This document shows positions 27,449-32,013 of a stretch of 64,000 nucleotides of DNA, one piece after another. Where the stretch lies: NCBI RefSeq assembly GCF_001746835.1, contig NZ_CP016094.1, positions 1,922,001-1,986,000 on the forward strand. The letters are read 5' to 3'. The DNA comes from Lacunisphaera limnophila. Its GTDB lineage: Bacteria > Verrucomicrobiota > Verrucomicrobiia > Opitutales > Opitutaceae. How positions within the stretch are numbered: position 1 is the first letter of the stretch; every line of letters starts with the position of its first letter. The notes below the pieces were generated by a model. It made no database searches and was not told the DNA's origin. It worked only from the letters and a program-made list of their open reading frames with translations. The position numbers were made by a program, and so were the translations under genes.

Positions 27449-28318
27449 CTACTTCCCCTCGGTCCCGCCCAGCAATTTCCGCCAGCGATCCAGCACCCCG
27501 GCCGAGCGGGGTTTGACGATTTCCGGCTGCACGTTGATCTCCGGCACGCCGAGGATGGGTTCAAAGTGCCCGGCCTTCTTGTAGAGGATGACCACATCCT
27601 GCATGCCCCAGGCTTCCTCGAGGTAGGCGCGCATGATGATGTCGGGATACCGCTGGAGGGTGCGCATCACCCACTCGGGCGAGGTGAGGGCCAGGCCGTA
27701 GTCCTCCTCGGCGTTGCTTTCGAAATAGCGCTGGTAGGCGAAACCGGTGCGGGCGTACTCCTCCAGCAGGGCGGGCTTGTCGATGTTCTCGGCGACGTTG
27801 CGCCGGCCGCGGGCGAGCAGGCTGGAGACGGTGCGACCCTGGGTGGTGAAGACGATCACGCCGCACTCCTTGGTCCACTTCACGAGGCAGTCGAGGGTGG
27901 CGAGCCACCGGTCGCGGCGCAGGTGGGTCACCAGCGAGCCGACCCAGATCAGGTCAAACTGGGACTGGAAGGGCAGCTGGTGCAGGTCGGGCAGGGAATA
28001 AACCGGCTTCGCCCCGAACTGGTTGGCGCAAAAATCCACGCCATCGCGGTCAAGGTCACAGGCCGTGATATCGGCGTACGGGTAATGGGCGCGCAGCCAG
28101 CGCAAGACGCGGCCGTGGCCGCAGGGCAGGTCGAGGATATTGGGATAGTGCGGCTTGTCGCAGAGCTCGGAGGAAAAATGGATCAGTTCGAGCGCGCGGC
28201 GGCCGAGGTCGAAATATTGCTCGGTCAGGGTGGCGTCCGCCTCCTTGGCCAGCATGCCGTCGCGCGGGGCGAGGGCGCGGTCGACGGCCAGGCGGGAAAA
28301 ATCGTAGAGGGTTTTCAT
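27449..28318 (-). CDS. Class I SAM-dependent methyltransferase
   Basis: 289 residues from the ATG at 28318. The motif I region is PNILDLPCGHGRVLRWLRAH, followed by YADITACDLDRDGVDFCANQ and QFDLIWVGSLVTHLRRDRW, a methyltransferase-25-like core. A C-terminal extension of about 90 residues (GRTVSSLLARGRRNVAENID through QDVVILYKKAGHFEPILGVP) resembles proteins found near polysaccharide genes, but no glycan gene adjoins here. It converges with the SpoU gene and diverges from the FAD oxidoreductase. Substrate unknown. Confidence 0.82.
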   Translation of the reverse strand: MKTLYDFSRLAVDRALAPRDGMLAKEADATLTEQYFDLGRRALELIHFSSELCDKPHYPNILDLPCGHGRVLRWLRAHYPYADITACDLDRDGVDFCANQFGAKPVYSLPDLHQLPFQSQFDLIWVGSLVTHLRRDRWLATLDCLVKWTKECGVIVFTTQGRTVSSLLARGRRNVAENIDKPALLEEYARTGFAYQRYFESNAEEDYGLALTSPEWVMRTLQRYPDIIMRAYLEEAWGMQDVVILYKKAGHFEPILGVPEINVQPEIVKPRSAGVLDRWRKLLGGTEGK

Positions 28319-28409
28319 GCGAGGGGACCGGCGCATCAAGGCGGGCGGGCGGGCGGGCGTCAATCGCGGGCAACCTTGCATCCGCGCGGCGCCCGGCAAG
28401 GATGGGGCC

Positions 28410-29546
28410 ATGAACACCCCGATCTGGGATGATCGCGACTGGCGGCCCCTGCCGACGCTCGTCGGGCCGGTACGGGCGGATGTGTGTGTGGTCGGGTTGG
28501 GTGCGTCGGGTCTGGCCGCGATCGAGGAGCTCGTGGACCAGGGCGTCGCCGTGGTGGGGGTGGAGGGGCAGGCCGTCGGGGCGGGCGCGGCGGGTCGCAA
28601 CGGCGGCTTTGTGCTCGCGGGTCTGGCGAAGTTTTTCAACGAGACCGTGGTGCAATGCGGCGAGGCGGCCGCCGGGGCGATCTACCGGCAGACCGCGAGG
28701 GAGATCGCGCGGCAGGCCCAGGACATGCCGGCGATCGTGCGCCAGTCGGGCGCGCTGCGCATCGCGGCGGATGCGGCGGAACTGGCCGACTGTGCGCAGC
28801 ACCTGGCCGCGCTCCGCTACTGTGGTTTTCCCGCCGCCGCTTACACCGGACCCGAGGGCGAGGGTCTGCTGCTGCCGGAGGACGGGGTGACGCAGCCCCT
28901 GCACCGCGTGCGGGCGGTGGCGCAGCGGTTGCGCCAGCGGGAGACCCGGCTCTACGAAAATTCGCCCGCCCGCAAGCTGGTGGCGGGGGCGGTCGTGACG
29001 GACCAAGGCACGGTGCATTGCGACAGCGTGATCGTGGCCGTCGACGGCCGGCTGGAGCGGATCTTGCCTGAATTGGCCGGGCGGGTGCGCACCGCGCGGC
29101 TGCAGATGCTGGCGACGGCCCCCGCGCCGGAGGTACAATTTTCCCGGCCGGTCTATTATCGCCAGGGCTATGAATATTGGCAGCAGCTGCCAGACCGAAG
29201 CATTGCGCTGGGCGGGTTCCGCGACCAGGCCGGGGACGAGGAATGGACAGGGGACGACGCCCCGACAGAGCGGGTCCAGGGCTTGCTTGAGAAATTCCTG
29301 CGCCAGCACCTCAAGGTGCGTGCGCCGGTCACGCACCGCTGGGCGGCGTCCGTGGGTTACACACCGGACGGCCTGCCGATCCTGGAGGAGGTACGGCCGA
29401 AGACCTGGGCCGTGGGCGGCTACAACGGCACGGGCAACATCGCGGGGGTGCTGGGCGCCCGCGCGGCGGCGCGGCTGGTCTGTGGGCAAGGTTCGGAATG
29501 GGCGGCCGCGCTGGCGGGGGCACGGGCGCATGCCGGCCGGCGGTAG
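28410..29546 (+). CDS. FAD-dependent oxidoreductase (DAO/PuuB-like)
   Basis: 378 residues from the ATG at 28410. An FAD-binding Rossmann motif near the N-terminus (VCVVGLGASGLAAIEELVDQ) is followed by GAGAAGRNGGFVLAG, the R-NGG motif seen in gamma-glutamylputrescine oxidase-type and other D-amino-acid-oxidase-fold enzymes. The C-terminal block is GYTPDGLPILEEVRPKTW followed by VGGYNGTGNIAGVLGARAAA, also typical of the family. It probably oxidises an amine or amino acid; the substrate is unknown. The upstream extension to 28317 is antisense to the neighbouring methyltransferase gene. Confidence 0.85.
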   Translation: MNTPIWDDRDWRPLPTLVGPVRADVCVVGLGASGLAAIEELVDQGVAVVGVEGQAVGAGAAGRNGGFVLAGLAKFFNETVVQCGEAAAGAIYRQTAREIARQAQDMPAIVRQSGALRIAADAAELADCAQHLAALRYCGFPAAAYTGPEGEGLLLPEDGVTQPLHRVRAVAQRLRQRETRLYENSPARKLVAGAVVTDQGTVHCDSVIVAVDGRLERILPELAGRVRTARLQMLATAPAPEVQFSRPVYYRQGYEYWQQLPDRSIALGGFRDQAGDEEWTGDDAPTERVQGLLEKFLRQHLKVRAPVTHRWAASVGYTPDGLPILEEVRPKTWAVGGYNGTGNIAGVLGARAAARLVCGQGSEWAAALAGARAHAGRR

Positions 29547-29575
29547 GCGGGACGGGGCAGCTCCGCCCTAGAGAT

Positions 29576-29581
29576 TTGACA
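29576..29581 (+). promoter_or_regulatory. Candidate -35 element before the Phe leader
   Basis: A perfect TTGACA lies 31 bases before the leader ATG. The region 16 to 18 bases downstream has no good -10 match (CAGCAC is the best-placed hexamer). If it is used at normal spacing, transcription would begin within a few bases of the leader start codon and the leader mRNA would be nearly leaderless. This fits the absence of a ribosome site. Prediction only. Confidence 0.4.
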
Positions 29582-29612
29582 ACCGGCGGCCGGACCGTCA
29601 GCACTCTGCGCG

Positions 29613-29702
29613 ATGATCTTCACCGCCGGCTTCTTCAGCTTTACGTTTGCGGGCTATTTTGCCCCGCAGAGCCGAGGCGGCGTTTCCCCAAGCAACCCCT
29701 GA
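29613..29702 (+). CDS. Phe-rich leader peptide of the DAHP synthase-pheA operon
   Basis: A 29-codon frame encodes MIFTAGFFSFTFAGYFAP, continuing QSRGGVSPSNP. Six Phe codons and one Tyr codon fall in the first 16 positions, including adjacent Phe codons 7 and 8. The frame is followed 22 bases later by an intrinsic terminator and then by the genes for a DAHP synthase and chorismate mutase/prephenate dehydratase, the committed route to phenylalanine. This is the arrangement of amino-acid attenuators such as pheL-pheA. No Shine-Dalgarno sequence precedes the ATG. It would act in cis as a ribosome-position sensor, not as a functional protein. Evidence is composition, position and RNA pairing; no homologue search was possible. 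Confidence 0.8.
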   Translation: MIFTAGFFSFTFAGYFAPQSRGGVSPSNP

Positions 29703-29724
29703 TCACAGGAAAATATTGCCAAGG

Positions 29725-29757
29725 AGCCGCCCAAACCCAGGGCGGCTTTTTTATTTT
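29725..29757 (+). terminator. Intrinsic terminator of the Phe attenuator
   Basis: The stem AGCCGCCC (29725-29732) pairs perfectly with GGGCGGCT (29740-29747) over a seven-base loop and is followed directly by a run of six T, then A and four T. It stands 127 bases before the DAHP synthase start and about 180 bases after the previous gene, so it fits leader control better than simple end-of-gene termination. Confidence 0.9.
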
Positions 29758-29783
29758 AACCACCAAACCCAAGAATATTTCCC

Positions 29784-29810
29784 GCGGATGACGCGGATAA
29801 ACGCGGATAA
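29784..29810 (+). repeat. Three short direct repeats of GCGGAT
   Basis: GCGGAT occurs at 29784, 29793 and 29803, the last two inside identical ACGCGGATAA decamers. It lies in the leader between the attenuator and the DAHP synthase gene. Units of this type look like dispersed intergenic repeats; only this copy is in the window, so that idea is untested. Confidence 0.5.
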
Positions 29811-29884
29811 AGAAACCCAATTCTGATGCCGTAGGTGCCTCATCCACGCGGCGTTGATCGACTCCCTCCCCAACCCCTTCCCCC

Positions 29885-30940
29885 ATGATCCTCCCCAAAA
29901 ACAACCGCCTGACCGAGACCGAAGTCGCCCAGCTCACCGTGATCGTCGGTGAGTTTGGCTGCCGCATCCAGCCGATCGTCGGCGACCTGCGGACCATCTA
30001 CGCCATCGTCGGCGACGAGCGGCACGAGCTGATGATCAACCGCATTGAGGGCCTGTCGTTCGTGGACCGCGTGGACACGATCCAGTCGCCGCACAAGCTG
30101 ATGGACATCAAGTCGGACCTCGCCCGCCACCGGGTGAAGGTCGGCGGGGTCACGCTGGGGGAGGAACTGCTCATCATGGCGGGCCACTGCACGATCGACC
30201 CGAAGAACCCGAATCTCTTCTACGAGACGGCCCAGGCGGTGAAGGAGGCCGGCGCGCACGCTATCCGCGGCGGCGTGTGGAAGCCGCGCACGAATCCCTA
30301 CGCCTTCCAGGGCGACAACAAGTCCCTCGACATCCTGATGGAGGGCTCGCGCCGCACCGGCCTGCCGGTGGACACGGAGGTGATGGATGAGGAGCAGCTA
30401 AAGCTCGCCCTCGCCGCCGGCGTGCACGTGCTGCAGATCGGGGCGCGCAACGCCCTCAATTACTCGCTGCTCCGGCAGGTGGGCGCCGCCATCGCGGGCA
30501 AACCCGTCGCCGTGCTGCTCAAGCGCGGCATGCACACGGGCACGCTCAACGAGTTCATCTCCGCCGCGGAGTACATCGTGAACTTCGGCAACCCCAATGT
30601 CATCCTCTGCCCGCGCGGTACGCAGCCGGGGCTCGACGGCTACCGCAACCAGCCGGATGAGTCCATCACCCCCCTGCTCAAGGAGCGGACCTGGGCCCCG
30701 GTCGTGGTGGATCCCTCCCATTCCGTCGGCCGGGCCACCTACGTGCCGGCCTGCGCGCTCGCGGCCGTGGCCTACGGGGCGGACGGCCTGTGCATCGAGG
30801 CTCATGTCAGCCCCGCCCACGGGCTGGGTGACGACCCGAAGCAGGCGGTCACCCCCGCCGCGCTTGCGGGGTTGATCCGGGAGGCCAAGGCCCTCCATGC
30901 TCTGCGTCGCTCCCCCCGTTCCCCCGCCGCCACGTCATGA
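29885..30940 (+). CDS. aroF: 3-deoxy-7-phosphoheptulonate synthase, Thermotoga-type (I-beta) with N-terminal regulatory domain
   Basis: 351 residues. An N-terminal ferredoxin-like regulatory domain (about residues 1-70) precedes the barrel, as in Thermotoga maritima DAHP synthase. Barrel motifs include GGVWKPRTNPYAFQG, VLQIGARNALNYSLL, VLLKRGMHTGTLNEF and VVVDPSHSVGRATYV; Cys102, His279 and Glu305 stand where the metal ligands are expected. The usual G-P-C-S motif reads G-H-C-T here, so Pro is replaced by His101. It is preceded by the Phe attenuator and overlaps pheA by four bases (ATGA), so the product should be tied to Phe supply. No ribosome site: the upstream bases are pyrimidine-rich. 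Confidence 0.93.
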   Translation: MILPKNNRLTETEVAQLTVIVGEFGCRIQPIVGDLRTIYAIVGDERHELMINRIEGLSFVDRVDTIQSPHKLMDIKSDLARHRVKVGGVTLGEELLIMAGHCTIDPKNPNLFYETAQAVKEAGAHAIRGGVWKPRTNPYAFQGDNKSLDILMEGSRRTGLPVDTEVMDEEQLKLALAAGVHVLQIGARNALNYSLLRQVGAAIAGKPVAVLLKRGMHTGTLNEFISAAEYIVNFGNPNVILCPRGTQPGLDGYRNQPDESITPLLKERTWAPVVVDPSHSVGRATYVPACALAAVAYGADGLCIEAHVSPAHGLGDDPKQAVTPAALAGLIREAKALHALRRSPRSPAATS

Positions 30941-32013
30941 AAAAGCAACTCGCCCAGGTCCGTGCCCAAATCGACGCCCTCGACCAGAAGGTCGTGCGGA
31001 TCCTCAACACCCGCCTGAAGTGCGCGCAGCGCATCGGCGAGCTCAAGCGCGGCGCGAAGACCCGCATCTACGTGGCTGAGCGCGAAGCCGACGTCCTGCG
31101 CCGGGTCGCCTCGGCCAACACCGGCCCGCTCAAGCCCGCCGCCCTGCAGGCCATCTACCGCGAGATCATGTCCGCGGCGATCTCCCTCGAGAAGCCGCTG
31201 TGCGTGGCCTACCTCGGGCCCGAGGCCACCAACACGCATGCCGCCGCGTTGCGCAAGTTCGGCTCCAGCGTGGACTACCGCCCGATGGCGACCATCGCCG
31301 ACATCTTCACCGCGGTGGAGAAGGGCGAGGCGGACTACGGGGTCGTCCCGGTGGAGAATTCCACCGAGGGCTCCGTGCGCGACTCGCTCGACCTGTTCGT
31401 GGAGACGCCGCTGAAGATCGTCGCCGAGCTGCACCAGGAGATCGAGCACACGCTGCTTTCCCGCGAGCCGCTCGCGAAGATCAAGAAGGTCTACTCGAAG
31501 GACCAGGCGCTGGCGCAGTGCCGCCGCTGGCTGCAGCGGCACCTGCCGCACGCGCAGCTGGTGGACGTGGACAGCACGGCCTACGGCGTGCAGATCGCGG
31601 CGAAGGAGAAGGGCGCCGCCGCCATCGCGCCGCGGCTGGCCGGTGAGCGTTACGGCGTGCCGGTCGCGGCCACGCATATCCAGGACCTGAAGAACAACAC
31701 CTCACGCTTCGTCTTCCTCGGCCGCGAGGCCTCGGGCTCGGCCGGCAGCGGGCACGACAAGACCAGCCTGCTGGTGTCGTTGCACCACGAGTCCGGGGCG
31801 CTCCTGCGCGCGCTGCAGCCCTTCAACCGCCGCAAGCTGAACCTGACGCGCATCGAGTCGCGGCCGAGCAAGCTCAAGCCGTGGGACTACATCTTCTTCC
31901 TCGATGTCACCGGCCACTATGACGATCCGGCCATGCAGGCCGCGCTGAAGGAGCTGAGCCGGAAATGCCCGCTGGTGAAATGGCTGGGGAGTTATCCGGT
32001 GGCGAAGCGCTGA
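30937..32013 (+). CDS. pheA: Bifunctional chorismate mutase / prephenate dehydratase
   Basis: 358 residues in three domains: an AroQ-type helical chorismate mutase (residues about 1-85, with VRAQIDALDQKVVRILNTR and AQRIGELK), a prephenate dehydratase domain (from VAYLGPEATNTHAAALRKFG, with VPVENSTEGSVRDSLDLF and NNTSRFVFLGRE), and a C-terminal ACT domain (TSLLVSLHHESGALLRALQP, then LTRIESRPSKLKPWDYIFFL). The ESRPSK motif is the Phe-binding signature, so the enzyme is probably feedback-inhibited by Phe in addition to attenuation. It converts chorismate to phenylpyruvate. It is the last gene of the attenuated operon. Confidence 0.96.
   Translation: MKKQLAQVRAQIDALDQKVVRILNTRLKCAQRIGELKRGAKTRIYVAEREADVLRRVASANTGPLKPAALQAIYREIMSAAISLEKPLCVAYLGPEATNTHAAALRKFGSSVDYRPMATIADIFTAVEKGEADYGVVPVENSTEGSVRDSLDLFVETPLKIVAELHQEIEHTLLSREPLAKIKKVYSKDQALAQCRRWLQRHLPHAQLVDVDSTAYGVQIAAKEKGAAAIAPRLAGERYGVPVAATHIQDLKNNTSRFVFLGREASGSAGSGHDKTSLLVSLHHESGALLRALQPFNRRKLNLTRIESRPSKLKPWDYIFFLDVTGHYDDPAMQAALKELSRKCPLVKWLGSYPVAKR

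Follow-up and report, generated by a model that had tools for sequence, protein, structure and literature searches.

Among the closest described systems is the attenuator of the enterobacterial pheA gene (pheL), in which a Phe-rich leader peptide, a terminator and a competing antiterminator are found before pheA. Leaders of a similar kind have been described ahead of DAHP synthase genes. In Corynebacterium glutamicum, the aroF gene, which encodes DAHP synthase, has a leader peptide that contains Phe-Tyr-Phe (PMC4046766). The uORFC-13-1 motif of Acholeplasma consists of a Phe-coding upstream ORF and a terminator located upstream of aroF, an arrangement for which attenuation has been predicted (PMC8632094); in that report, the motif is recorded from Acholeplasma and from unassigned environmental sequences only. 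Leader peptides encoded at the very beginning of a transcript are also on record: the trpL transcript of Sinorhizobium meliloti begins at the leader ATG (PMC7298713), and several leader peptides of Streptomyces lividans are transcribed leaderless (PMC8079986).

The locus described here lies in a 64-kb stretch of DNA that was analysed as a whole, henceforth the window, and its features are listed in Table 1. Judging from the nucleotide sequence, it is very probably a classical ribosome-mediated attenuator, responding to charged tRNA-Phe and probably to tRNA-Tyr as well, and controlling an operon made of a DAHP synthase gene and pheA. An earlier note on this DNA had assigned these two functions to the downstream genes, and the Pfam domains agree with the assignment; the genes overlap by 4 nt. 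The locus shares with the enterobacterial pheL attenuator the Phe-rich leader, the terminator/antiterminator pair and the presence of pheA downstream, but it differs in that DAHP synthase is the first gene and in that the leader is predicted to be leaderless. The C. glutamicum aroF attenuator, compared by its description, also has an aromatic leader before a DAHP synthase gene; however, its phylum is different and its aromatic run is shorter. The uORFC-13-1 model, in its published form, includes a ribosome binding site, whereas none is seen in the Opitutaceae leader. As to the leaderless leaders reported in S. meliloti and S. lividans, they involve other amino acids (Trp, Leu, Ile and more), and their start was determined while that of the Opitutaceae leader is predicted.

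No family reached threshold in an Rfam scan of the window. A permissive scan of positions 29500-29900 returned seven sub-threshold matches, including one to Phe_leader (RF01859) on the terminator. Membership in this family was rejected, as the match involves the terminator part and scores 17.8 bits (E 1.9) against a gathering score of 55. A survey of the open-access literature found no relevant title on leader peptides, attenuation or phenylalanine in Verrucomicrobia, Opitut- or Lacunisphaera. The earlier note had considered that attenuators of this kind are little described in Verrucomicrobiota. This view holds insofar as no example from the phylum was found in the open-access literature, and must be narrowed insofar as DAHP synthase attenuators and leaderless leader peptides have been published elsewhere. 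Hence, the novelty lies in the leader family and its little-studied host group, while the kind of attenuator is already known and mechanistically ordinary. The family is well supported and absent from Rfam, and its variants suffice to test the rules of attenuation outside Proteobacteria and Actinobacteria, among them the stall distance of 18 nt, the bias towards TTT codons and the use of GTG to start leaders whose mRNAs are predicted to be leaderless. If the attenuator is confirmed, transcription-translation coupling would serve regulation in Verrucomicrobiota.

Table 1. Features of the Phe leader, the genes around it and a second leader of the same genome.
Feature	Position	Strand	Details
FAD oxidoreductase gene, upstream neighbour	28317-29546		same direction as the operon
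TTGACA, promoter -35 element	29576..29581	+	read from the sequence
CAGCACT, weak -10-like element	29599..29605	+	putative; 17 nt after the -35 element
Predicted transcription start	29611..29613	+	from the conserved promoter-to-start spacing
Leader ORF	29613..29702	+	29 residues, MIFTAGFFSFTFAGYFAPQSRGGVSPSNP; ATG 29613, TGA 29700-29702
Segment 1	29623..29632	+	partner is segment 2 with its 5' flank, unless a ribosome is in between
ORF hairpin over the last Phe/Tyr codons	29646..29670	+	TTTGCGGGC...CCCGCAG
Phe codon 16, predicted stall codon	29658..29660	+	18 nt 5' of segment 2
Segment 2, GGCGGC (Gly-Gly codons)	29676..29681	+	5' arm of the antiterminator
Intrinsic terminator and T run	29725..29752	+	arms AGCCGCCC (29725-29732) / GGGCGGCT (29740-29747); T run from 29747
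Segment 3, GCCGCC	29726..29731	+	in the antiterminator, pairs with segment 2; in the terminator, with segment 4
DAHP synthase gene	29885..30940	+	Pfam DAHP_synth_1 PF00793 and ferredoxin-like domain PF18152
pheA (chorismate mutase, prephenate dehydratase, ACT domain)	30937..32013	+	PF01817, PF00800, PF01842
ilvD leader, locus L172	G000:C1:4060010-4060163	-	same switch segments and TTGACA

The six Phe codons and single Tyr codon previously noticed among the first 16 codons of the leader ORF were read directly in the sequence, with Phe at codons 3, 7, 8, 10, 12 and 16 and Tyr at codon 15. For statistical analysis, an ORF was considered to qualify if it started with ATG or GTG, was 15-45 codons long and had at least 6 Phe and Tyr codons among its first 17. 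The leader ORF was the sole one that passed the aromatic filter on either strand of the window. When the region 29547-29884 was shuffled 5000 times with preservation of dinucleotides, a terminator appeared in 24 shuffles and a qualifying ORF in none, so that the combination of both was never obtained (0/5000). A chance origin of the Phe-rich ORF was thus rejected.

Relatives were sought in several samples. A relative of the DAHP synthase was detected at E≤1e-30 in 170 of 200 genomes of the same family, from which 29 fresh loci were taken (L033-L061), and the best 80 of 102 DAHP synthase loci were taken from named genomes. Selection of leaders required only a TTGACA element and, downstream, a GGCGG-type stem with a T run. 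After this selection, 45 loci remained, in which 33 distinct leaders could be told apart, counting that of the window; each of them precedes the same DAHP gene. Copies with identical sequence probably come from one genome represented twice. A filter for Phe-rich ORFs also picked unrelated ORFs (e.g., those of L104, L110 and L116), which were left out of the counts. All 33 leaders turned out to have both the Phe content and segment 2, though neither was required. Loss of the Phe codons or of the pairings in close relatives had been set beforehand as a refutation of the attenuator; this refutation failed, as aromatic codons, the alternative pairings and the terminator persist across the 33 leaders.

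The leader was found in 14 of the 29 loci from family genomes, and a covariance model built from the 33 leaders had no match in the other 15. On the 80 named loci, the model gave 27 full matches (E≤1.5e-18) and one match cut by a contig end (L091); no match was obtained in the remaining 52, not all of which belong to this family and some of which have little upstream DNA. Labels of the named loci with a leader include Opitutaceae, Lacunisphaera, Didemnitutus, Cephaloticoccus, Opitutus or just Verrucomicrobia. Matches at E≤0.01, weak and chance ones included, were detected in 86 of the 200 family genomes, and 44 genomes had a match at E≤1e-6, which in G255 and G349 is an ilvD leader. Within a genus sample of 11 genomes, the leader lies upstream of DAHP synthase in all 8 genomes that have the gene and is missing in the 3 that lack this DAHP synthase. 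A sample of the order, searched with stricter filters, comprised 149 genomes, and the four that gave a match at E≤1e-5 all belong to Opitutaceae. The leader is thus frequent among Opitutaceae without being universal. Near unlinked pheA genes (27 loci), two weak matches were seen (E about 7e-4).

The peptides encoded by the 33 leaders follow the approximate pattern M-N-R-F-A-A-Y-F-x-F-x-F-A-G-Y-F-x-P-x-x-x-G-G. With 2-7 Phe codons among the first 17, the leaders can be described as rich in the amino acid that would be regulated. An aromatic codon is located 18 nt ahead of GGYGGC in 33/33 leaders (Phe in 29, Tyr in 4); in a separate count, the last Phe codon sits exactly 18 nt before segment 2 in 28 of 33. 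The stop codon is found 0, 9, 12 or 18 nt 3' of GGYGGC, and 12 of the 33 leaders start with GTG. Codon choice is also peculiar: the TTT share of Phe codons is higher in the leader than in its own DAHP gene in every one of the 33 cases (114/165 leader codons vs. 43/201 in the DAHP genes, which favour TTC). This bias could slow decoding or serve the fold of the RNA.

A TTGACA element is located 36-38 nt 5' of the start codon in 33/33 leaders, a count in which TTGACA was required and the start codon was sought at a distance of 30-45 nt. The same spacing was obtained for TTGAC, without requiring it, in 31/31 loci found with the covariance model; the model itself begins at the start codon, 8 of the 31 leaders were absent from its alignment, and one of the 31 (L150) admits a second, longer reading with a spacing of 28 nt. 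The -10-like element of the window is a poor match to TATAAT. Its counterpart in relatives is mostly CACNN[CA]T, and CA is found at this offset in 31 of 33 leaders. The spacing of 36-38 nt, together with a 17-nt spacer and a -10-like element, places the predicted RNA start near the start codon. Hence, the transcript is predicted to be leaderless or to have its 5' end no more than some 2 nt away from the first codon of the leader. Inspection by eye revealed no AGGAGG-like Shine-Dalgarno sequence just 5' of the start in the 33 leaders. The near-leaderless spacing had been proposed for the window, and is now seen to be maintained across 33 distinct leaders.

The pairing elements of the switch were examined by folding. 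The perfect eight-base-pair terminator with its T run and the complementarity between 29676-29681 and 29726-29731, both pointed out before, were verified in the sequence, and the pairing earlier proposed between segments 1 and 2 is the minimum-energy fold of 29613-29681 (-25.2 kcal/mol). The region 29715-29755, which contains the terminator, folds with -20.1 kcal/mol (z -4.2), and none of 200 shuffles was equally stable. Upstream pieces are unremarkable when compared with dinucleotide shuffles (29613-29712, z -1.3; 29640-29690, z -1.3; 29672-29745, z -1.2). Left to fold freely, 29672-29733 forms the antiterminator, which at -20.1 kcal/mol, including a nested hairpin, equals the terminator alone. 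When the 3' arm is present (29672-29755), the terminator wins with -28.8 kcal/mol. Structure choice is kinetic in known attenuators, and the choice is presumed to be kinetic here as well, since the two structures are alike in energy and the terminator prevails once its 3' arm exists.

Segment 3 is invariant (GCCGCC, 33/33), and segment 2 is GGCGGC in 31 leaders and GGTGGC in 2. The antiterminator, which shares the 5' arm of the terminator, is complementary in 33/33 leaders and is the free minimum before segment 4 is made. It can pair in 100% of 198 cells of the alignment, compared with 28-75% when the partners are slid. The core pairing between segments 1 and 2 is possible in 90.9% of 198 cells (31-59% with slid partners), and its helix shows two double-changed cells. 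Terminator pairs are found in 99.2% of cells of the 33-leader alignment, a figure partly built in by the selection of leaders on a T-run terminator. The 132-nt gap between terminator and gene seen in the window is not part of the conserved element and is far shorter in many relatives. Within this gap, positions 29782-29810 hold three tandem ACGCGGATAA-like decamers, and similar DNA seems, by eye, to lengthen the gap in L004 and L068.

An additional hairpin is predicted inside the ORF in each of the 33 leaders, with variable sequence and register. In the window, its energy is -13.0 kcal/mol, compared with a mean of -7.1 in synonymous redraws of the ORF (p 0.01). At p≤0.05, 22 of the 33 hairpins are more stable than their synonymous redraws, with a mean of -10.9 vs. 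-5.9 kcal/mol; the other 11 are not. On fixed alignment columns, 75.3% of the cells of its helix pair. Compensatory changes are seen at two column pairs, both of which also include unpaired sequences: 40-58 (GC 17, UA 9, CG 2, other 5) and 39-59, which is UA in 12 leaders, CG in 6 and unpaired in 15 of 33. Hairpin and terminator together have a covariation score of 0.136, compared with 0.101 in shuffles (0/500 as high); their pair types are no more numerous than in shuffles (11 vs. a mean of 12.1). The RNAalifold consensus keeps the helix of segments 1 and 2 and the terminator and omits the hairpin inside the ORF; its covariation term is only -0.44. In the antiterminator, covariation is lacking because segments 2-4 are nearly invariant. 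Altogether, the comparison of relatives suggested in the earlier note showed that codons and pairings are kept; the covariation expected along with them is limited, as there is little variation in segments 2, 3 and 4.

The leader RNA or its peptide might act mainly in trans, as a small RNA or a small protein, with cis attenuation playing a secondary role. Such an activity would suit a small, conserved transcript, terminated by prediction, with a conserved peptide pattern, and has a precedent in the rnTrpL/peTrpL pair of Sinorhizobium (PMC7298713). We regard this explanation as improbable, however, because conservation falls on the aromatic codons, the pairing segments and their spacing, and because the element is upstream of the DAHP gene, so that attenuation in cis suffices. 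Hardly probable either is that a metabolite riboswitch, a T-box or an RNA-binding protein, and not the translating ribosome, governs the terminator. In agreement with such control, the fold of region 29613-29755 surpasses that of most shuffles even with no ribosome on the RNA (z -2.7; 3/200 as stable). However, the absence of any Rfam family at threshold within the window argues against it (the library used presumably includes the T-box), and so does the nature of the conserved features, namely codons in frame and a stop codon that follows segment 2 at a distance of 0-18 nt. Lastly, it is barely conceivable that the terminator merely serves to insulate the operon against the FAD oxidoreductase gene ahead of it and that the Phe-rich ORF is a chance product or a decayed gene end: the terminator is strong by itself and the upstream gene is co-directional, but the ORF did not arise in the shuffles, the ORF pattern, promoter spacing and GGYGGC are maintained in 33 distinct leaders, and the conserved aromatic codons refute insulation plus a chance ORF as a full account.

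For ribosome-mediated attenuation, we infer the start of transcription, ribosome stalling and Phe-dependent read-through as follows. Transcription would begin at the leader start codon or right beside it, in which case ribosomes would load directly on the uncovered 5' end of the RNA. Under Phe shortage, translation would halt at codon 16 or at an earlier Phe codon, and the stalled ribosome would open the ORF hairpin and separate segment 1 from segment 2, leaving GGCGGC free. When codon 16 occupies the A site, the ribosome would shield the RNA, we assume, up to about 29671, so that GGCGGC at 29676-29681 stays free; the 18-nt distance found in 33/33 leaders fits this placement, given such a footprint. 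The free GGCGGC would then capture GCCGCC before the 3' arm of the terminator exists, and the polymerase would read through. If Phe is ample, the ribosome would get to the stop codon, GGCGGC would be either covered or retaken by segment 1, and the terminator would form. In the window and in other leaders with 18 nt between segment 2 and the stop codon, a ribosome at the stop would barely reach GGCGGC, assuming the same footprint, and protection would thus come from segment 1. Without a ribosome, segments 1 and 2 would pair, leaving segment 3 to the terminator.

Some leaders also carry Trp codons. Trp was found within the first 18 codons in 0/25 leaders that have pheA beside the DAHP gene and in 8/13 that do not (Fisher 2.6e-5), a count that includes 38 leaders after 6 of 44 were dropped for having less than 900 nt downstream, five of those six carrying Trp. 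The Trp-carrying leaders at DAHP-alone loci are L048, L049, L096, L098, L103, L111, L192 and L194. On the DAHP tree, a single change is enough to separate the groups, so the Trp/pheA split amounts to one event and proves little.

A second leader with the same GGGCGGCT/AGCCGCCC/GGGCGGCT plan is found in the same genome before ilvD; its peptide, MFPVVAIALITVVLALVAVDTLTHGRLAKVSNS, is rich in Ile, Val and Leu. TTGACA is 47 nt ahead of the ilvD leader start, which predicts a short 5' UTR instead of none. Leaders of the ilvD type similar to L172 were also seen in L179, L180, L182, L183 and L185. The GCCGCC-type terminator pattern has nine matches in the genome, two of which follow such leaders (DAHP and ilvD), and by eye no attenuator was seen directly upstream of trpE or leuA. 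A tentative and rather doubtful interpretation is that Opitutaceae possess several attenuators, covering at least aromatic and branched-chain amino acids, built on one reusable plan. In this plan, the distance from promoter to start codon would be fixed such that the leader mRNA has no 5' UTR or almost none, the start codon would often be GTG, and the switch would alternate as GCCGCC/GGCGGC/GCCGCC/GGCGGC. If this were true, amino-acid sensing would rely on leaderless initiation, and whatever favours or suppresses leaderless translation would adjust these operons regardless of how much amino acid is available.

Other short ORFs were observed during the searches. Upstream of DAHP synthase in three SAR324 MAGs (L136, L137 and L138), there are aromatic-rich short ORFs that end in LPG-stop (MDKAAFTTGRPGAFYYYWWRFTRLPG in L136); by eye, they lie near a CCTGCCC/GGGCAGG-type pairing with no evident T run, and these upstream regions had no Rfam match. 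Loci L187-L191 have leader-like ORFs rich in Ser and Thr, with one Trp (e.g., MIQVRSNVSLMLTPWYNTTSKAITRTLPGAL), together with a terminator and TTGAC 41 nt upstream. These leaders precede a protein of about 105 residues, seen in four of five translations, which, as a guess, might be an integrase arm.
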